From: Gammaproteobacteria bacterium
GTDB lineage: Bacteria; Pseudomonadota; Gammaproteobacteria; Steroidobacterales; PWYM01
NCBI GenBank assembly: GCA_003567855.1
Contig: PWYM01000144.1
Span: forward strand, 1 to 53,368
Length of the DNA stretch: 53,368 bases
Direction: 5' to 3'
Shown here: positions 39,578 through 49,360 of the stretch, piece by piece
Numbering within the stretch: the stretch's first letter is position 1
How the letters are laid out: the number at the start of each line of letters is the position of its first letter
Translations under genes and position numbers: made by a program
Notes under the pieces: generated by a model
What the model saw: the letters and a program-made list of their open reading frames with translations, nothing else
Databases searched by the model: none
Told to the model about the DNA's origin: nothing

Positions 39578-39733
39578 TCAGGCGCTGAAGAAGTCCGCGT
39601 GCGGCCGATCCTCGGGGTCAAGGCTGGGCTCGATGAGGTCGATGCGCTGCCTGTGCGTCCCGGCCGCAATACTGCCGACCCCCTGCAGGTGCGCCAGCAT
39701 GCCCCGGTACGGGGTGCCGGCGATGATGCTCAT
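39578..39733 (-). CDS. 51-residue microprotein coupled to SnoaL-like gene
   Basis: Below the track cutoff. ATG 39733 overlaps the SnoaL stop as ATGA, and the frame encodes 51 residues beginning MSIIAGTPYRGMLAHLQGVG and ending DPEDRPHADFFSA. It is soluble-looking, with no signal peptide or TM helix. The tight overlap and the stop placed exactly against the converging gene support a real gene. I recognise no family. Confidence 0.5.
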   Translation of the reverse strand: MSIIAGTPYRGMLAHLQGVGSIAAGTHRQRIDLIEPSLDPEDRPHADFFSA

Positions 39734-40140
39734 GACAGCCCACCCTGCAGCTGGTGCCAGATCCGATAGGTACGGTGGGCGAAACGCCAGCCGTTCGCGG
39801 TACGCGTGTAGCGGTCATCGTAGCGGCCGAACAGGTCGAGCCGGCTGCCGTCCTCACTGCTGACCAGCGTCTCGCGCACCCACACGCGTCCATCTCCGGA
39901 GTCACCGTCGAGCGCGATCGGTCCCGGCTGGCAGAAGAAACCGACGAACGAGTACGGTGACATCGCCTCGCGCCACGTCGCGAGGATGCGGTCGCGGCCC
40001 TCGATGGTGTTGCCGAGCAGGTCCCAGCTCGCATCCTCGGCCCAGGTGGCAGCCCATGCGTCGCCGTCGCGGCAGAACACCGCGTCGGCGTAGGTCTCGA
40101 TCAGCGCCCGGATCGCGTCGCGGTCTTCGGTGCCGGTCAT
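39730..40140 (-). CDS. SnoaL/NTF2-like protein
   Basis: A 136-residue cone-shaped fold protein: DRDAIRALIETYADAVFCRDGDAWAATWAEDASWDL, IEGRDRILATWREAM, DGRVWVRETLVSSEDG, RYDDRYTRTANGWRFAHRTYRIW. The family includes ketosteroid-isomerase-like enzymes, dehydratases and ligand-binding proteins; the catalytic residues are too variable to assign a reaction. It lies 45 bp downstream of the four-RCK SLC13 permease on the same strand and upstream of a coupled microprotein. It may process a compound imported by that permease, by inference. Confidence 0.85.
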   Translation of the reverse strand: MTGTEDRDAIRALIETYADAVFCRDGDAWAATWAEDASWDLLGNTIEGRDRILATWREAMSPYSFVGFFCQPGPIALDGDSGDGRVWVRETLVSSEDGSRLDLFGRYDDRYTRTANGWRFAHRTYRIWHQLQGGLS

Positions 40141-40185
40141 CGTGTCTCCTTCGTCAAAGCAACAGCAGTACTTGCGCCCGCCGGA

Positions 40186-42546
40186 TCACAGGGGGCGCAG
40201 CGGCCAGAATATCGGCAGCACGAGGAAGGTCGCGATCATCACGACCGTCGCCACGGGCACGCCGAGCTTGATGTAGTCGCGGAAGCGGTAGCCGCCCGGT
40301 CCCATCACGAGCACGTTCGCCGGATGCGAGATCGGGCTCATGAAGCTCGCGGCGGCCATCGCGATGGCCATCATCGCGGTATGCGGCGCGATGCCCATGC
40401 TGACGCTGACCGAGATCGCGATCGGCGACATCAGCACCACGAGTGCGGGCACCGGCATCACCAGCGTGCCCAGCGCGGTCGCGACGTACAGGCCCACGAT
40501 CACGGTCCACGGGCCGAAACCGCCGAGGGCGTCGAGCAGCACTTCCGACAGGTAGGCATCGGCGCCGGTCTGCTGCATCGCCGCGCCCAGCGGCAGCATG
40601 CCGGCGATCAGGAAGATCGCGCGCCACTCGATCGCGCGGTACGCGCCTTCCATGTTCAGGCAGCCCGTCAGCACCATCAGCGCGGCGCCGCTGATGGCGG
40701 CGATGTAGATGGGTACGAAACCGGTGAGCACCGCGATCACCACGCCCGCCATGATCGCCGCAGCCAGGGGCGCGCGCCCCAGGTTGGTCGGACCGCTGGA
40801 CAGGCCTGTGAGCACGAGGAAGTCCGGGTCGCGCTCGAGCATCTGCAGGCGCTCGCGCGGCCCGAGCAGCAGCAGCGCGTCGCCGAGCTGCAGCACCATC
40901 TGGTCGAGATTGGTGCGAATGGTGTTTCCGTGACGCCAGATACCGACCAGCTCCAGACCGTAGCGTTCGCGGAAGTTGATGTCCTGTACCGGCTTGCCGA
41001 CGTGGTCCGAGCGCGGCTCGAGCGTGGCCTCGAGCATCGCCAGGCGGTCGGACTGGAACTCGCCGATCATCGGCACGTTGGTCGGCTCTACGTTGAGCGC
41101 CTGCAGCCCGCGCAGCACCTCGATGTCGTCGGGCCGCCCCTGGATGATCAGCAGGTCGCCGCCCTTCAGCGGCAGGTCCGGGTCCGGCATAGTCGTCAGT
41201 TCGCCTTCGCGGAACAGCGCCAGCATGCGGAAGTCGAACGCATCGCCGAGCCGGCTGCCCGCCATCGTGCTGCCGGCAAGCTCCGATTCCTTCGGCACGC
41301 GCGCGACGAATACCCGCTCCTGCAGCCGGTAGGTGTCGCGCAGCTCGTCCTCGGTGACCGCGCGCATGTCGGTGAAGTCCGGCGATGCCTCCAGGTCCTC
41401 GAGGATGTCCTCGTTGCCCTGCAGCAGCAGCACGTCGCCGGCACGCAGCGGCACATACGCGAGGTTCACGCGGCGCACGAGCTCGCCGCGGCGTATCGCG
41501 AGCACGTTCGCGTCGTAGCGGCGCCGGAACTCGCTGTGGTGCAGCAGCTCCGACACCAGTGCCGAGTTCTTGGCGACGGTGGCCTCGGCGAGACGCACGC
41601 GTTCGGACATCAGCGCCGCGAGCACCGGCGCCTCGCGCTCGATCACCAGTTCCGACCAGCGACGGAAGTCGTTGAAGCGGTCGAGCCGGCCCTGCACGAG
41701 CAGCCGGTCGCCCGCCTGCAGCACGGTCTGACGGCTGGGCAGCGTCTCGGTACGTCCGCCGCGCACCAGCGCGAGCACGATCAGGCCCGCCGCGGTGCCG
41801 ATGCGGCTCTGGCCCAGCGTGCGCCCGACCAGCGGCGAATCCTTGCCTATGGTCATGTTGAAGGTCTTGGCCTGCAGCCCGTACTGCGTGCGCAGATTGC
41901 GCTGGCTGAGGCGGCGGGTGTCGCGCTTGGGACGGACCTTGGGCAGCAGGAAGCGCCCGATGAACGCGACGAACAGCGCCCCCGCGATCAGCGCGACGCC
42001 GCCCACCGGCGTGAAGTCGAACAGCCCGAACGGCTCGAAGCCGGCTTCCTGCAGCGCGCTGCTGACAATCAGGTTCGGCGGCGTGCCGACCTGTGTGGTC
42101 AGCCCGCCGAGCAGCGTCGAGAACGCCATCGGCATCAGCAGTCGCGACGGTGCAAGGCGCGTACGGCGGGCGAGGTCTATGGTGACCGGCAGCATCAGCG
42201 CGGCGACGCCGATGTTGTTCATGAACGCCGACAGCCCGCCGGCGGTGATCATCAGCACGACGATCATCCGGAACTCGCTCGGCCCGGCAAGGCGCAGCAC
42301 CCAGCGCCCGATGATCCCCGAAATGCCCGTGCGCGTGAGTCCTTCGCTGAGGATGAACATCGCCCAGACCGTGATCACCGCGGGGTTGCTGAAGCCGGCG
42401 ATCGCGCCTTCAGGGTCGACCAGCCCGGTGAGCGCGAGCGTCGACAGCACCAGCAGGGCGATCAGGTCGACCCGCAGCCGCTCGCTGATGAACAGCACGA
42501 GTGCGACCAGCAGGATGGTCAGGACGAGGGCGATTTCGAGGGTCAA
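40186..42546 (-). CDS. SLC13-family permease with four RCK_C modules (second copy)
   Basis: A 786-residue transporter. Membrane halves: N-terminal LNMF-type helices with FMNNIGVAALMLPVTIDLARR and TTQVGTPPNLIVSSAL; C-terminal MVLTGCLNMEGAYRAIEWRAIFLIAGMLPLG and SPISHPANVLVMGPGGYRFRDY. Between them are four TrkA-C-like modules (about 220-290, 295-395, 405-480, 490-575), each ending in a DxLLxxG strand such as AGDRLLVQG, AGDVLLLQG, GGDLLIIQG, LGDALLLLG. The copy at 27425 has two. RCK_C modules gate transport in response to a ligand. Substrate unknown; neighbours suggest an organic anion. Confidence 0.9.
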   Translation of the reverse strand: MTLEIALVLTILLVALVLFISERLRVDLIALLVLSTLALTGLVDPEGAIAGFSNPAVITVWAMFILSEGLTRTGISGIIGRWVLRLAGPSEFRMIVVLMITAGGLSAFMNNIGVAALMLPVTIDLARRTRLAPSRLLMPMAFSTLLGGLTTQVGTPPNLIVSSALQEAGFEPFGLFDFTPVGGVALIAGALFVAFIGRFLLPKVRPKRDTRRLSQRNLRTQYGLQAKTFNMTIGKDSPLVGRTLGQSRIGTAAGLIVLALVRGGRTETLPSRQTVLQAGDRLLVQGRLDRFNDFRRWSELVIEREAPVLAALMSERVRLAEATVAKNSALVSELLHHSEFRRRYDANVLAIRRGELVRRVNLAYVPLRAGDVLLLQGNEDILEDLEASPDFTDMRAVTEDELRDTYRLQERVFVARVPKESELAGSTMAGSRLGDAFDFRMLALFREGELTTMPDPDLPLKGGDLLIIQGRPDDIEVLRGLQALNVEPTNVPMIGEFQSDRLAMLEATLEPRSDHVGKPVQDINFRERYGLELVGIWRHGNTIRTNLDQMVLQLGDALLLLGPRERLQMLERDPDFLVLTGLSSGPTNLGRAPLAAAIMAGVVIAVLTGFVPIYIAAISGAALMVLTGCLNMEGAYRAIEWRAIFLIAGMLPLGAAMQQTGADAYLSEVLLDALGGFGPWTVIVGLYVATALGTLVMPVPALVVLMSPIAISVSVSMGIAPHTAMMAIAMAAASFMSPISHPANVLVMGPGGYRFRDYIKLGVPVATVVMIATFLVLPIFWPLRPL

Positions 42547-42737
42547 CGGCCCGCTCCCTGCAGCGATCGGCGGGGGTCGGGGCGGAGGCGGTGGGCGGGA
42601 CCGGTGGCGGAGGGGTGGCTTCGCCGACGTGAGGGACCCGCCATGGATCTATAGCACTGCCGTGGCTCGAGGATGCCGATGCCACTAGTGTAATACGAAT
42701 CGTTGCGCGTCGAGCGGGCGGTGACGCCACGCAGTGA

Positions 42738-43805
42738 TCAGTCGGCGGCACCCTCGCGGCGCGCGAATGCCGCCTTCCCTTCGAGGATCAGGTCGTAGAG
42801 CTCCTGGGCGCGGCCGCCGATGCGCCGGATCAGGCGCGGGTGTTCCTGCCATGCGCGCTCGGCCCACACCGCGCGATTCGCATCGCTCCATTCGTGCACT
42901 TCTATACCGCTCTGCACGAGGTGCTCGAGCGTTTCCTCCACCGACGCGCGGGCCACCCCGCGCACCCGCTCGTGGCCGCCGAAGGCGTGGCGCAGCACCT
43001 CCTGGTCGGCCGGGTCGAGCTGCTCGAACCAGCGCGCGTTGGCGACGATCGCGCCGAAGTCGTAGCTGTGGCGGCTGAGCGAGAGGTGGCCGGCCTCGTC
43101 GCGCACGCCACCGTAGTGGTACATCGTGATCGAGGTCGCGCCGCCGCGGATCAGCCCGGTCTGCAGCGCCGGCACGATTTCGGTGAACGGCAGCGGCTTG
43201 GTGTCGGCGCCGATGGTCTCGACGAAGTGCAGCGCTGCGAGTGACGATGCCGCGCGCAGCGGGTAGCCGCGCACGTCGTCGAGTTCGACGATAGGCTTCT
43301 GCGCGTAGATGTTGACCCAGCCGACCTCGGTGTACTGGAACAGCACCACGCCCTGTTCGGCGAACAGCTCGGCGAGCGGCTCGAAGACGTACTCGTCCAT
43401 GACGAAGTCGACTTCCTCGACACTGTCGAACAGAAACGGCGCCGAGATCACCGCGATCTCCGGCACGATCGTGGCCATGCCCTGGAACGAGCCGCCGGCA
43501 ACCTGTATGCGCCGGCCGCGGCGCATCTCGGCGATCATCGACTCTTCCGGCCCGGCCTCGCCACGGATCAGCATCGCCGGCTTGAGCCGGCCCTCGGTGC
43601 CCTCGATGATGCGACGCTCGAAATCGCGCCACAGCCGCTCGTCGGGGGAGCCCGGCATCGAGAACCCGCCGACCGCGACCCGCTGCGGTGCATCGGGGTC
43701 GGGGGTGTCGCAGCCGCCGAGCGCCAGCGCCGCGGCGCCGAGCAGCGCGAGCGACGTCAGCCGTGCGCCTGAACGCCGAGCGCGGCGGAGCACGCCGCGC
43801 GTCAC
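42738..43805 (-). CDS. TRAP-type (DctP family) solute-binding lipoprotein, orphan
   Basis: A 355-residue binding protein with a lipobox (LALGGC). DctP features: GSPDERLWRDFERRIIEGTEGRLKPAMLI, a central helix around VDFVMDEYVFEPLAELF, the VRGYPLRAASSLAALHFVETIGADTKPLPFTEIVPALQTG block containing the carboxylate-binding Arg region, and a C-terminal helix. These proteins deliver carboxylates to DctQ/DctM permeases, but neither permease gene is in the window; the adjacent transporter is SLC13 type. The ATG overlaps the DUF1838 stop by 4 bp (ATGA). Confidence 0.88.
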   Translation of the reverse strand: MTRGVLRRARRSGARLTSLALLGAAALALGGCDTPDPDAPQRVAVGGFSMPGSPDERLWRDFERRIIEGTEGRLKPAMLIRGEAGPEESMIAEMRRGRRIQVAGGSFQGMATIVPEIAVISAPFLFDSVEEVDFVMDEYVFEPLAELFAEQGVVLFQYTEVGWVNIYAQKPIVELDDVRGYPLRAASSLAALHFVETIGADTKPLPFTEIVPALQTGLIRGGATSITMYHYGGVRDEAGHLSLSRHSYDFGAIVANARWFEQLDPADQEVLRHAFGGHERVRGVARASVEETLEHLVQSGIEVHEWSDANRAVWAERAWQEHPRLIRRIGGRAQELYDLILEGKAAFARREGAAD

Positions 43806-44689
43806 TCGTGGCCCGCCTCGTCGAGGTCGATCTCGCCGTCGAGCACCTTGCGGAACAGTGTCCAGCTCGTCTCCGACGGCTCACTCCATTCCTCAGGCGC
43901 CCGCAGGTACTTCGGATAGTCCTGTTCGATCGCCTCGCGCACGTGGTCGGGCAGTTCCGCGGCGCCGTCCATGAGCTTGACCGAGCGCCCGTGGTAGACG
44001 AGCCACCCCGGGCGGTTGCCCATCTCCATCCACGGCAGCCAGGGCCCGACGCGCGTCCACGAGCCGGTGCCGGGCGCCGAGGTGATCTCCGGATCCTCGA
44101 GATCGGCGAGGCTCACGAAGTTGTTGAACAGTTCCATCGCCTCGTACCAGTCGCCGGTCGAGTGCAGCGGGTACTCCGAATACGGCAGCGGATTCGGGTA
44201 GCGCAGCGGGATCTCGCGGTAGAAGGTCACGTGGTCGCCGTGGCGCATGTAGTTCACCGACCAGCCCCCGCCCTGTTCGTCAATCACGTGGCGGCGGTTC
44301 ACCGGGTCGTTGAGTACGGGGATCACGCGCACCTCGCGGTCGATCCACGGGTTGTGCCAGCTGTCGAGGATCTCGCCGGTATCCGGATCGGTGTAGAACG
44401 CGATCTCGCGCTGGACGCGCTGCCAGCCGCCCTCGATACGCTCGTAGCGCTTCACGCCGACGACTTCCATGCCGAGGATCGGGCGACCGCGATGGCCCGG
44501 CACGAACGCGAACACCGTGCTCTGCGCATAGACCATGGTCTCGCGTTCGGACGTGTCACCGACGGTCTTCACGTAGGCGTCGAGCAGCTGGTGCGGGTCG
44601 TCGAGGTCGAGTCCGTCGGCCGACGCGGCCGTGGTGAAGGCAAGCAGCGTGGCCGCGAGCGCGGCGCGCGGGCAGGAGGTGAAGTTCAT
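43802..44689 (-). CDS. Secreted DUF1838 protein
   Basis: A 295-residue protein with a signal peptide (cleavage near ASA). Typical DUF1838 features: ERETMVYAQSTVFAFVPGHRGRPILGMEVVGVKRYE, FYTDPDTGEILDSWHNPW, VNYMRHGDHVTFYREIPLRYPNPL, SWTRVGPWLPWMEMGNRPGWLVYHGRSVKL. Function of the family is unknown; the Trp/His-rich beta body suggests a lipocalin-like ligand binder, which is inference. It is translationally coupled to the DctP lipoprotein downstream and lies 28 bp after the CpcT-like gene. Confidence 0.85.
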   Translation of the reverse strand: MNFTSCPRAALAATLLAFTTAASADGLDLDDPHQLLDAYVKTVGDTSERETMVYAQSTVFAFVPGHRGRPILGMEVVGVKRYERIEGGWQRVQREIAFYTDPDTGEILDSWHNPWIDREVRVIPVLNDPVNRRHVIDEQGGGWSVNYMRHGDHVTFYREIPLRYPNPLPYSEYPLHSTGDWYEAMELFNNFVSLADLEDPEITSAPGTGSWTRVGPWLPWMEMGNRPGWLVYHGRSVKLMDGAAELPDHVREAIEQDYPKYLRAPEEWSEPSETSWTLFRKVLDGEIDLDEAGHE

Positions 44690-44717
44690 CCGGTGCGCTC
44701 TCCCTGGTCGTCAGAGT

Positions 44718-45368
44718 TCATTGTGTATCGATTCGCTCGAAGCGGTAGCCGCCGTCGGCGGGGCCCCAGACGTGGTTGTCGTCGTCGTCGAAGCCGCGGT
44801 CCCAGTTCTCGAAGCGCCCGGACTCGATGCGCGAGACCGAACGCATGTAGCTCGCGCCGCGCCACGCGTTGCGGCAGCGTCGCCCGTCGGTGCCGCCCTC
44901 GAACACGCCGGGCGCGGTCTGGCGGTAGAAATTGTCGCAGTCGGGGTCGGCCTCGAGTGCGTCGCGTTCGAGGCCGGCGAGCTTCGATGCGTCGCGCCAC
45001 GCGCCGACATGGCGTTCGGGCGACGCCAGCGTGTACACGCGCAACCGGATGCGCCCGTCTGAATCGCGGAACAGCTGCTGCACGCGCTGTCGGTACGGCG
45101 TCTCCTGGCCTTCGATCTGCTGCTCGGTATAGAACCAGTAGCCATCGCCGGCGTCCGGCCAGATGCGCGTCGTGCGGTAGTGCACGAGCAGGTAGGTGCC
45201 GTCTTCGGCGGCCTGCGCCTCGGAACTGAAGACGCCGGAGTAGTGGTCGGCGAGCAGCGAAAGTTCGTCATCGGCGGCAGCGGACTGAGATGCCAGCATA
45301 CAGGCGATCAGGGCAGCGAGCAGTATCCGCACCTGGCGCGCGCGACGTGGGGGTCGTGTGTGGGTCAC
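44718..45368 (-). CDS. Secreted CpcT/CpeT-family (chromophore lyase fold) protein
   Basis: Start set at GTG 45368 (GGAG six bases upstream), directly before a signal peptide ending QSAAA; ATG 45386 is an alternative. About 216 residues. The mature part follows the CpcT/CpeT pattern closely: LLADHYSGVFSSEAQA, FYTEQQIEGQETPYRQRVQQLF, DPDCDNFYRQTAPGVFEGGTDGRRCRN and a closing VWGPADGGYRFERI. In cyanobacteria these calyx-shaped proteins attach bilins to phycobiliproteins. Nothing here is phototrophic, and this one is exported, so it more likely binds a hydrophobic or tetrapyrrole-like ligand in the periplasm. First gene of the run leading to DUF1838 and DctP. Confidence 0.83.
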   Translation of the reverse strand: MTHTRPPRRARQVRILLAALIACMLASQSAAADDELSLLADHYSGVFSSEAQAAEDGTYLLVHYRTTRIWPDAGDGYWFYTEQQIEGQETPYRQRVQQLFRDSDGRIRLRVYTLASPERHVGAWRDASKLAGLERDALEADPDCDNFYRQTAPGVFEGGTDGRRCRNAWRGASYMRSVSRIESGRFENWDRGFDDDDNHVWGPADGGYRFERIDTQ

Positions 45369-45499: not shown

Positions 45500-46399
45500 T
45501 TGGGCACACGACACGGAACCTACGAGGCCCGCCGGCCACCCGGGCGGCATTTCGTCGATCTGCGGGGCATGCGCTACCGGTTATGGACCTGGGGGCCGGA
45601 AGCGGGCATGCCGGTCGTGCTGCTGCATGGCTGGGGCGACTGCGGCGCGACCTGGCAGTTCGTCGCCGATCACCTGCCCGAACACTGGCGACTGGTCGCC
45701 CCGGACTGGCGGGGCTTCGGCGACAGCGCGTGGAGCAGCGGCGGCTACTGGTTTCCAGATTATCTGGCCGATCTGGACGCGCTGCTGCACACGCTCTGCC
45801 CCGATCGACCCGTGGCGCTGGTCGGGCACAGCATGGGCGGCAACGTCGCGTCGATCTACGCCGCGGCCCGGCCGGAGCGCGTCGCGCGCATCGCCAACCT
45901 CGAGGGCTTCGGGCTGCGCGATGCCGACCCGGTCGAGGCGCCTGCGCGCTACCGGCGCTGGCTCGATGAGCTGTCCGAACCGGTGCCGTTCAGTACGTAC
46001 AGAGATATCGATGCGCTCGCTCGCCGCCTGGCGCGCCGCAACCCGCACCTGCCGCACGACCGCGCGCTTTTCGTCGCCGAAGCCTGGACTGCGCCGACCG
46101 CGACCGGAGAGCGCGCGCTGCGCACCGATCCGGCACACCGTCGCGTCAACCCCATCCTCTACCGGCGGGCCGAGGCCGAGGCCTGCTGGCACGAAGTCGC
46201 GGCGCCGGTGCTGTTCATGGTCGCGCGCGACTCGCATTTTCTCGAGCGCGGGCGCCAGCAGTTCGTGGACCCTGACTTCGGCGCGGCGCATTACCGCGAC
46301 CTGACCGAAACGTGGCTCGACGACTGCGGCCACATGATGCACTGGGAGCGCCCCGAGGCCGTCGCCGAGGCACTGGCGGCGTTCATCGACCCGGGTTGA
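45500..46399 (+). CDS. Alpha/beta hydrolase
   Basis: TTG 45500 has GGAG six bases upstream and is accepted as start; 299 residues. Catalytic set: VVLLHGWGDCGATW (oxyanion), APDWRGFGDS, nucleophile GHSMGGN, acid in VARDSHFLE and His in DDCGHMMHWERPE. The fold matches soluble esterases, haloalkane-dehalogenase-like and meta-cleavage hydrolases, and no substrate is implied. TACAAT (45466-45471) is a possible -10. Divergent from the CpcT-like gene across about 130 bp, so the two may share regulation. Confidence 0.9.
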   Translation: MGTRHGTYEARRPPGRHFVDLRGMRYRLWTWGPEAGMPVVLLHGWGDCGATWQFVADHLPEHWRLVAPDWRGFGDSAWSSGGYWFPDYLADLDALLHTLCPDRPVALVGHSMGGNVASIYAAARPERVARIANLEGFGLRDADPVEAPARYRRWLDELSEPVPFSTYRDIDALARRLARRNPHLPHDRALFVAEAWTAPTATGERALRTDPAHRRVNPILYRRAEAEACWHEVAAPVLFMVARDSHFLERGRQQFVDPDFGAAHYRDLTETWLDDCGHMMHWERPEAVAEALAAFIDPG

Positions 46400-46446: not shown

Positions 46447-46474
46447 CGCCCGAGGTTTGCGCCTGCCGATACCG

Positions 46475-48565
46475 ATGACCGAAACCCGAGCCGATCCGTT
46501 CGCCGGCCTGAATACGGCCCAGCGCAGCGCCGTCGAACACGGCGAGCGCACGCCGCGCGGGGTCGACGCGGCCCCGCTGCTGGTGATCGCCGGCGCCGGC
46601 ACCGGCAAGACCGCCACGCTCGCCCATCGCGTGGCCTGGCTCGTGCTCGCCGGCGTCGATCCGGCGCGCATCCTGCTGCTGACGTTCAGTCGACGCGCCG
46701 CGCTCGAGATGCACCGGCGCGCCTGCGGCATCGTCGCCGCGGCGCTGCGCGCACCGCAGGGCGCCGCACCCGAGGTGCGCCTGCCCTGGTCGGGTACTTT
46801 CCACGCCATTGCCAACCGCCTGCTGCGCGGTTACGCGGCGAACCTCGGGCTCGCGCCGGGGTTCTCGGTGCTCGACCGCGGTGACGCGGCCGACCTGATG
46901 GACGTGGCCCGCCAGGACACCGGCGTTGCGCGCGGCCACCGCCGGTTTCCGCGCAAGCAGACGTGCCTCGACATCTACTCGCGCGTCGTCAACGCGCAGG
47001 CCGAACTCGACGACGTGCTGCAGTCGCGGTTTCCGTTCTGCGCCGAGTGGTCCGACCGGCTGCGCACGCTCTTTCGCCGCTACACCGAGCTCAAGCAGGA
47101 GACCGACGTGCTCGACTACGACGACCTGCTGCTGTGCTGGGTCCACCTGATGCGCGAGCCGGCACTTGCCGCCGATGTTGCCGGGCGCTTCGACCACGTG
47201 CTCGTCGACGAGTACCAGGACACCAATCGCCTGCAGGGCGAGATCGTCCGGCGGCTGCGTCCCGACGGGCGCGGCGTGACCGTCGTCGGCGACGATGCCC
47301 AGAGCATCTACGCGTTCCGCGCCGCCGACGTCGGCAACATCCTCGACTTTCCGGCGCAGTACGACCCGCCGGCCCGTGTCGTCACGCTCGAGCAGAACTA
47401 CCGCTCGCGCAGTCCGGTGCTCGACACCGCGAACGTGCTGATCGGCCAGGGTGCCCGCCAGTATCCGAAGCGGCTGTGGTCGGCACGCGGCACCGGTGAG
47501 GCGCCCGCCTACGTGTGCGTCGAGGATGAGCACGCCCAGACCGATTACGTCGTCGCCCAGGTGCTCGCCCGCCGCGAGGCCGGCACGCTGCTGCGCGCGC
47601 AGGCGGTGCTGTTTCGCAACGCCCATCACGGCGACGCGCTGGAGCTCGAACTCGTCCGGCGCAACATTCCCTACGTGAAGTACGGCGGCCTGAAGTTCCT
47701 GGAGGCGGCACACGTCAAGGACCTGCTCGCGCTGCTGCGCCTGGCGGAGAATCCGCGTGACCGGATCGCGGTGTATCGCGTGCTGCAGCTGTTGCCCGGC
47801 ATCGGGCCGGCGAGCGCCGAACGCTGTTACCGGCACCTTTCGGCGAGCGACTGGCGGCTCACGGCGCTGTCGGGTTTCACGCCGCCGCCGGCAGCACGCG
47901 AGGATTACGCGACGCTGTGCGCGCTGTTGGCGCGTCTCGACGTGGCCGACACGCAGGCCGCATGGCACCCGCAGGTGGGCCTCGCGCGGGCGTGGTACCA
48001 GCCGCAGCTCGAGCGTCTCTACGACGGCGCACTGGCCCGCGCCGGTGACCTCGACCAGCTCGAGCAGGCCGCGTCGCGCTACCCGTCGCGCGAACGTTTC
48101 CTCTCGGAGCTCGTGCTCGACCCGCCACAGGCCACCGGCGACCTGTCCGGCGCGCCGCTGATCGACGAGGACTTCCTGGTGCTGTCGACGGTGCACTCGG
48201 CAAAGGGACAGGAGTGGGACACCGTGTACGTGCTCAACGTCGCCGACGGTCATTTCCCCAGCGAGTTCGCGACCGGCAGCGATACGCTGATCGACGAAGA
48301 GCGTCGGCTGCTCTATGTCGCGATGACGCGTGCGCGGGAGTCGCTGCATCTGCTCGCGCCATTGCGCCATTACGTGCCGGGCCAGGCGCGGCACGGCGAT
48401 CGGCACGTCTACGGCGCGCGCAGCCGCTTCATCACGCCGGAAGTGCTCGCAACGATGCGACGCGTGTTCCATGCACGCGATGATGCGATGTCCGGTGACG
48501 GAGGCGGCGGCCGCCGGCCCGCGGTCACCGTCGACGTGGCCGCGAAGCTGCGCGCGCAGTGGTGA
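46475..48565 (+). CDS. UvrD/Rep-like superfamily 1 ATP-dependent DNA helicase
   Basis: Start taken at ATG 46475 (MTETRADPFAGLN); TTG 46457 is possible but would sit almost at the predicted transcription start. 696 residues. SF1A motifs in order: Q motif LNTAQRSAVEHG, Walker A GAGTGKTATLAHR, motif Ib WSGTFHAIANRLL, motif II DEYQDTNRLQ, motif III GDDAQSIYAFRAA, motif IV LEQNYRS, motif V VHSAKGQEWDTVYVL and motif VI LYVAMTRARESL. It is a 3'-5' helicase/translocase likely used in repair or restart. Under an SOS box, consistent with damage induction. It is not clearly uvrD itself (shorter, different C-terminus). Confidence 0.93.
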   Translation: MTETRADPFAGLNTAQRSAVEHGERTPRGVDAAPLLVIAGAGTGKTATLAHRVAWLVLAGVDPARILLLTFSRRAALEMHRRACGIVAAALRAPQGAAPEVRLPWSGTFHAIANRLLRGYAANLGLAPGFSVLDRGDAADLMDVARQDTGVARGHRRFPRKQTCLDIYSRVVNAQAELDDVLQSRFPFCAEWSDRLRTLFRRYTELKQETDVLDYDDLLLCWVHLMREPALAADVAGRFDHVLVDEYQDTNRLQGEIVRRLRPDGRGVTVVGDDAQSIYAFRAADVGNILDFPAQYDPPARVVTLEQNYRSRSPVLDTANVLIGQGARQYPKRLWSARGTGEAPAYVCVEDEHAQTDYVVAQVLARREAGTLLRAQAVLFRNAHHGDALELELVRRNIPYVKYGGLKFLEAAHVKDLLALLRLAENPRDRIAVYRVLQLLPGIGPASAERCYRHLSASDWRLTALSGFTPPPAAREDYATLCALLARLDVADTQAAWHPQVGLARAWYQPQLERLYDGALARAGDLDQLEQAASRYPSRERFLSELVLDPPQATGDLSGAPLIDEDFLVLSTVHSAKGQEWDTVYVLNVADGHFPSEFATGSDTLIDEERRLLYVAMTRARESLHLLAPLRHYVPGQARHGDRHVYGARSRFITPEVLATMRRVFHARDDAMSGDGGGGRRPAVTVDVAAKLRAQW

Positions 48566-48619: not shown

Positions 48620-49102
48620 TCAGTTCAGGCGCCAGATCTCGAAGTTGAGCGCGAGCGCGAAGCTTGCCCAGACGAGGTAGGGCACGAGCAGCGCACCCGC
48701 CACCGTAGCGACACGGAAGAACAGCGCACATGTCAGCGCGAGCACCGCCCAGACGGCGGTCAGCGTGAGCAGCGCGCCGCCGATGTCCTGCGCGCTGAAG
48801 TACATCCATGACCACAGGGCATTGAGGATGAGCTGCAGTGCGAAGGCCGCAAGTGCGGGCCAGCGCAGCAGGTGCAGGTGATGGCGCCAGACGATCCAGG
48901 CGCCGACCGCCATCATCACGTGCAGCAGCGTCCAGATCGGCGCGAACAGAGCCCGGGGCGGGGTCCATGGAGGCTTGGTGATCTGCGACTGCCAGTCGCC
49001 TGGCATGTACACGGTGCCGAAGAACGCCACCACCAGGCTGACCACGACGAACAGCGCGAGTACGAGGTGGCGATGCCGCCGCTTCTTACGCCGCAGCACC
49101 AT
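48620..49102 (-). CDS. TspO/MBR family tryptophan-rich membrane protein
   Basis: Start taken at ATG 49102 (MVLRRKKRRHRH), giving 160 residues, the usual TspO size; ATG 49159 is an alternative. Five TM helices with hallmark residues: ITKPPWTPPRALFAPIWTLLHVMMAVGAWIVW, ALQLILNALWSWMYF, VPYLVWASFALALNFEIWRLN. TspO binds porphyrins and cholesterol-like ligands and affects tetrapyrrole and stress physiology. The basic N-terminal tip is richer in Arg/Lys/His than usual. Possible link to the CpcT-like tetrapyrrole-fold protein is speculative. Confidence 0.93.
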   Translation of the reverse strand: MVLRRKKRRHRHLVLALFVVVSLVVAFFGTVYMPGDWQSQITKPPWTPPRALFAPIWTLLHVMMAVGAWIVWRHHLHLLRWPALAAFALQLILNALWSWMYFSAQDIGGALLTLTAVWAVLALTCALFFRVATVAGALLVPYLVWASFALALNFEIWRLN

Positions 49103-49360
49103 CGTGCGCGTGAGATCCGGCCTGGCGCCCGTTCGGGTGTTCAAACAGTTCCCCCGCATCGGCGTGGAACGCCGCTGGCAGCAATATGTCGTTATGAGTG
49201 CCAGTCGGCTGTTGCAAGTCCTCCCAGAATAATACAGTGCACCGAGTTCGCGAAAGCTTTTTCCGGAAGCCTTAAGACGCTATAAAAACAACATACAGGC
49301 GACTGAAAGTTCTGTTTTTCCGGACGACCTTCGCAGAAGCGCAACCGCAGGAGGCAAGCG

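Follow-up and report, generated by a model that had tools for sequence, protein, structure and literature searches.

CpcT-like, DUF1838 and DctP proteins as a candidate uptake and processing set beside an SLC13 permease in a gammaproteobacterial genus

The solute-binding proteins (SBPs) and membrane components of TRAP transporters usually form unique pairs (PMC12599236). Two systems of Bordetella provide further points of reference for the locus described here. The Bordetella TTT family comprises many SBPs and few membrane components, and its orphan SBPs are scattered (PMC5812351), while the TAXI-GltS system of Bordetella pertussis pairs a lipoprotein TRAP-type SBP with a non-TRAP carrier (PMC12344293). 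Our locus lies on a contig of 53,368 nucleotides, analyzed over its whole length (the window; contig C204 of genome G000), from a metagenome-assembled genome (MAG) that is 87.55% complete. An initial annotation had read six neighboring genes of the window as a single cassette, in which exported CpcT-like, DUF1838 and DctP proteins would scavenge a hydrophobic or tetrapyrrole-like carboxylate for transport by an SLC13 permease.

The locus in the window and in its genus

The six minus-strand ORFs of the initial annotation are all present (Table 1), and domain searches agree with the families it had named, the 51-aa ORF being without a Pfam match. The signal peptide of the CpcT-like protein was judged by eye. 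Of the two ATGA overlaps that had been reported, the one between the SnoaL gene and the microprotein ORF is correct, while the one between DUF1838 and DctP is actually GTGA since DctP begins with GTG; translation of DUF1838 and DctP is likely coupled through this overlap. Inside the gap between DctP and SLC13, neither a sigma-70-like nor a terminator-like site was detected. A TspO gene (48620-49159) is also found near the CpcT/DctP locus, and its counterpart adjoins UvrD in congener G043 (L073) and not in G001 (L075).

Table 1. Features of the locus in window coordinates.
Feature	Position	Strand	Basis or remark
CpcT/CpeT-family exported protein	44718..45368	-	GTG start; Pfam PF06206 4.3e-39, 134.7 bits (cut-off 21)
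DUF1838 exported protein	43802..44689	-	Pfam PF08894 3.1e-65; alignments
DctP-type TRAP solute-binding lipoprotein	42738..43805	-	PF03480 8.7e-39, NF037995 above cut-off; GTG start
GTGA start/stop overlap, DUF1838-DctP	43802..43805	-	Read from sequence
DctP-SLC13 gap, 191 bp	42547..42737	-	40-44 bp in congeners
SLC13/CitMHS permease, four TrkA_C (RCK) domains, TTG start	40186..42546	-	Domain search
SnoaL_4 protein	39730..40140	-	SnoaL_4 profile 1.5e-20
"Microprotein", 51 aa, ABM monooxygenase remnant	39578..39733	-	Alignment to congener ABM protein
Divergent alpha/beta-hydrolase, edge marker of the putatively inserted block	45500..46399	+	Conserved in 4/4 congeners; adjoins SLC13 in family f6
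UvrD/PcrA-like helicase, same edge marker as the divergent hydrolase	46457..48565	+	Profile match; locus comparison

We compared the locus among five genomes of the genus, the window's own (G000) and the congeners G001, G017, G031 and G043. The congener MAGs are fragmented and the genomes compared throughout this study are mostly draft MAGs, in which genes were called with a simple GC-frame script, so gene starts in the relatives are approximate. All four congeners carry UvrD and the alpha/beta-hydrolase in the orientation opposite to the run from CpcT to SLC13, which consists of a CpcT ortholog at the same position in each, a double alpha/beta-hydrolase, DUF1838 (in G043 only), DctP and SLC13. 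The six genes of the window are therefore not conserved together as one cassette: CpcT, DctP and SLC13 occur at the locus in 5/5 genomes, DUF1838 in 2/5, and SnoaL with its small neighbor in 1/5. G001, G017 and G031 encode DUF1838 proteins of 64-66% identity on a different contig. The window locus has lost the double alpha/beta-hydrolase and gained SnoaL and the ABM remnant. Downstream of SLC13, three congener loci (L073, L074 and L076) have convergent genes that we named by eye as Alpha-E-like, ATP-grasp-like and zinc-peptidase-like, and these are absent from that place in the window.

The two genes at the downstream end of the run were rejected as members of the set. SnoaL homologues of 62-63% identity exist in G001 and G017 at loci other than the SLC13/DctP one, no homologue was found in G031 or G043, and none of the four congeners has SnoaL at the window-type locus. 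In G017 and G001, SnoaL is followed by an ABM monooxygenase (called as ORFs of 114 and 133 aa, respectively). The 51-aa ORF aligns to both ends of the 114-aa protein with ~62 internal residues missing, and it contains no complete ABM domain by Pfam; on this alignment, the presumed microprotein is a deletion remnant of an ABM monooxygenase rather than an intact gene.

The SLC13 gene occurs in 93/196 genomes of the order. At two loci from two genera of family f6 (L208 and L209), it adjoins the hydrolase and UvrD genes known from the window locus, and neither CpcT nor DctP intervenes; the block from CpcT to DctP therefore looks like an insertion upstream of an SLC13 already in residence. The simplest reading, which takes these two f6 loci as the ancestral arrangement, is that the block appears to have entered between the hydrolase and SLC13 in this genus.

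Linkage between CpcT and DUF1838

CpcT and DUF1838 are linked across genomes. Among 196 genomes of the order, DUF1838 (present by E at most 1e-25) was found in 49/55 genomes with CpcT vs 30/141 without it, and the same held within families, with 4/4 vs 0/18 in f5 and 4/4 vs 2/36 in f6. CpcT itself is scarce across the phylum (4/399 sampled genomes). Seven whole-order gene pairings were assessed by Fisher's test uncorrected for phylogeny, and related loci are non-independent; presence calls used E-value thresholds that differed among families, and the genome lists and per-genome counts behind the Fisher and proximity tests were copied by hand. Weaker pairings were obtained for SLC13 (odds ratios of 1.7 to 3.5) and for CpcT with DctM (5.2).

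The link was not a prior hypothesis, but was noticed in L214 and the earliest DUF1838 loci and then measured. DUF1838 lies within 4 kb of CpcT in 13/80 CpcT loci outside the cassette, a cut-off that was set once the distances had been seen and a count that includes L214 itself, compared with ~1 expected from the per-genome DUF1838 counts; the observed 13 was still higher when these counts were tripled. A nearby DUF1838 is missing from most CpcT loci. The pair also lies close together in a Saprospiraceae MAG (L025), a deltaproteobacterial MAG (L028) and Rhodospirillaceae MAGs (L040 and L041), and L028, L040 and L041 have a DctP relative nearby as well; tight linkage of CpcT to DctP was seen only in the window's genus. 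Recurrent neighbors of CpcT/DUF1838 are a TonB receptor, an ADH_N_2 reductase, VOC proteins, hydrolases, MFS proteins and aldehyde dehydrogenase, joined in relatives by UbiD and amine oxidase. The comparison of gene neighborhoods that had been proposed as a check on the initial annotation came out divided: CpcT, DUF1838 and DctP are associated, both by genome-wide co-occurrence and by recurrent proximity in other lineages, while SLC13, SnoaL and the microprotein fall outside the linked group.

A larger CpcT/DUF1838 cluster recurs in Gammaproteobacteria and one Saprospiraceae MAG, and at L251, L253, L254, L250 and L025 the two genes are accompanied by varying sets of genes for VOC, ADH_N_2 and MFS proteins, aldehyde dehydrogenase and the TonB receptor.

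The window's CpcT-like protein is a sequence relative of the solved CpcT (4o4o) and of the plant protein CRL (6lix). The DUF1838 protein gave an AlphaFold2 model that is rich in beta-strands (pLDDT 90.5). A fold search of the PDB with this model returned one match at E <0.001 (TM-score 0.25), none of the matches listed exceeded a TM-score of 0.31 by query length, and a sequence search of the PDB gave only one insignificant match; because there is no convincing PDB relative, we read no function from the fold. In our literature search, DUF1838 was nearly absent, appearing only in a gene table, no assigned role was found for CpcT-like proteins of non-phototrophs, and nothing relevant turned up for CpcT either in heterotrophs or in combination with TonB receptors.

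A probable membrane partner of the DctP lipoprotein

DctP is a lipoprotein with the lipobox LGGC and has the characteristics of a family-7 extracytoplasmic SBP. Its residue R184, which we take from SiaP to be the TRAP ligand arginine, was aligned in 34/34 sequences compared. A natural break in the scores (at least 164 bits, the next being 77) delimits a DctP clade, across which the lipobox and the arginine are both kept. The initial annotation had described DctP as lacking DctQM, and this holds within the window, where neither DctQ nor DctM is encoded alongside, but not genome-wide, as an unlinked pair sits on another contig of the same genome (G000:C25). There, DctQ and DctM are encoded with a DctP paralogue that is sister to the window DctP in our tree (support 0.85).

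DctM of this C25 type follows the DctP clade closely. It is present in 46/50 order genomes with the clade vs 3/146 without, and inside family f15 in 23/25 vs 2/14; by Fisher's test over the 196 genomes, the odds ratio of the clade with this DctM is 548, compared with 3.5 for the clade with SLC13. It is always single copy, it is found in every genome of the genus, and 47/49 genomes having it also encode DUF1838. SLC13 is present without the DctP clade in 58 order genomes and missing from 15/50 genomes that have the clade. On this co-occurrence and the insertion pattern, SLC13 was rejected as the permease of the CpcT/DUF1838/DctP set, the role it had initially been given, and it is probably a resident neighbor outside the linked group.

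In the four congeners (L328-L331), the C25-type DctM has no adjacent DctP, DctQ was called beside it in 3/4 by our own gene caller, and several orphan DctPs of the clade lie at other loci. From the single-copy co-occurrence of DctM, its position away from any DctP, and the scattering of the DctPs, we therefore infer a shared DctQM hub, and the window DctP most likely feeds this distant DctQM rather than SLC13. In L332, L338, L339 and L340, orphan DctPs of the clade adjoin the gene of a large flavin oxidoreductase, which is Oxidored_FMN in L332 and a look-alike in the other three; this suggests that each orphan DctP may travel with catabolic genes of its own. L335 (G001:C74, 1769-7735) carries a second cluster, in which an alpha/beta-hydrolase (35% identical to the double hydrolase) and a DUF1838 protein (31%) accompany another TRAP system that has a separate DctP and DctM.

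Proposed role and relation to known systems

Working from gene linkage, co-occurrence, the insertion pattern, the remnant, the conserved arginine and the lipobox, all established by computation, we consider it fairly probable that CpcT, DUF1838 and DctP belong to a peripheral uptake-and-processing set for an organic acid or ester, with DctP feeding a DctQM encoded elsewhere and SLC13 as a resident. The substrate is probably hydrophobic or aromatic, a class that we infer. The set would also include the alpha/beta-hydrolase, lost from the locus in this genome. In the periplasm, the exported CpcT and DUF1838 proteins may bind the compound or process it; in relatives, they would often work behind a TonB-dependent outer-membrane receptor. 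The DctP lipoprotein would capture a carboxylate and hand it over, presumably by docking, to the DctQM of G000:C25, which may serve several such lipoproteins. The set would have landed in front of the resident SLC13, with which it could share a transcript, and SnoaL and the ABM remnant would be unrelated later arrivals.

Counter to this explanation, DUF1838 is at the locus in just 2/5 genus genomes, and the spacing of DctP and SLC13 in the congeners (40-44 bp) fits one operon. This spacing, together with a gene order kept in 5/5 genomes, also speaks for DctP passing its ligand directly to the adjacent SLC13 as a binding-protein-dependent transporter of the DASS type, analogous to TAXI-GltS. 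TRAP systems have membrane components of the DASS fold, and GltS is known to work with a lipoprotein SBP of the TRAP type (PMC12344293), a precedent that makes the idea reasonable, though not favored. Against it stand the many genomes that have SLC13 or the DctP clade without the other, the f6 loci where SLC13 borders the same edge genes with no DctP, the 191-bp gap in the window, the finding of no fusion at these loci, and the existence of a DctM partner in all genus genomes, and we regard such a transporter as very unlikely. Slighter still is the chance that the SLC13 of this genus has acquired, as its partner, the DctP lipoprotein inserted in front of it; if true, this would be the first DctP-dependent DASS-type secondary transporter.

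A second possibility is that the six genes are chance neighbors and that no two of them are functionally related, as the varying content of the genus loci might indicate, with the hydrolase lost, DUF1838 in 2/5 and SnoaL and the remnant in 1/5. We consider this unlikely, since CpcT co-occurs with DUF1838 and DUF1838 with DctM, and since the proximity recurs across several families and extends to a second phylum. Least probable of all is a role of the set in scavenging tetrapyrroles such as bilins. The CpcT family name, the kinship to the solved phycocyanobilin lyase CpcT, and the closeness of TspO and CysG in the window would suit such a substrate. However, the VOC, ADH_N_2, aldehyde dehydrogenase, UbiD and amine oxidase neighbors suggest catabolism of small organic compounds, the CpeT family also takes in plant CRL, and TspO does not adjoin UvrD in L075. 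Apart from the CpeT family name, we see no pointer to the tetrapyrrole-like substrate initially proposed, and we retain the organic-acid or ester set as the preferred reading.

With regard to the CpcT/CpeT bilin lyases and plant CRL, the window protein shares the Pfam CpeT domain and similarity to 4o4o and 6lix, but differs in being exported and linked to DUF1838 and TonB receptors. To our knowledge, the organisms carrying linked CpcT and DUF1838 are not known as phycobilin users. The association of these genes, extending into a second phylum, offers a testable setting for them in periplasmic organic-acid handling beside TonB/TRAP uptake. Like TAXI-GltS, the locus has a gene for a lipoprotein TRAP-type SBP adjoining a non-TRAP secondary transporter, but DctP and SLC13 have neither translational overlap nor fusion, and co-occurrence favors DctM. 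In common with the Bordetella TTT orphan SBPs, there are many scattered SBPs and few membrane components, although those are TTT proteins and the window's SBP is of the DctP type. A further comparison is with DctPQM itself, as the window DctP is an SBP that has the conserved arginine and whose genome also encodes a matching DctQM; the differences are that its gene is unlinked from DctQM and that it is a lipoprotein. The pattern of one DctQM and several DctP lipoproteins at scattered loci is suggestive of a hub, and a single DctQM that appears to serve several SBPs would be unusual among TRAP systems, whose cognate partners are usually unique (PMC12599236).
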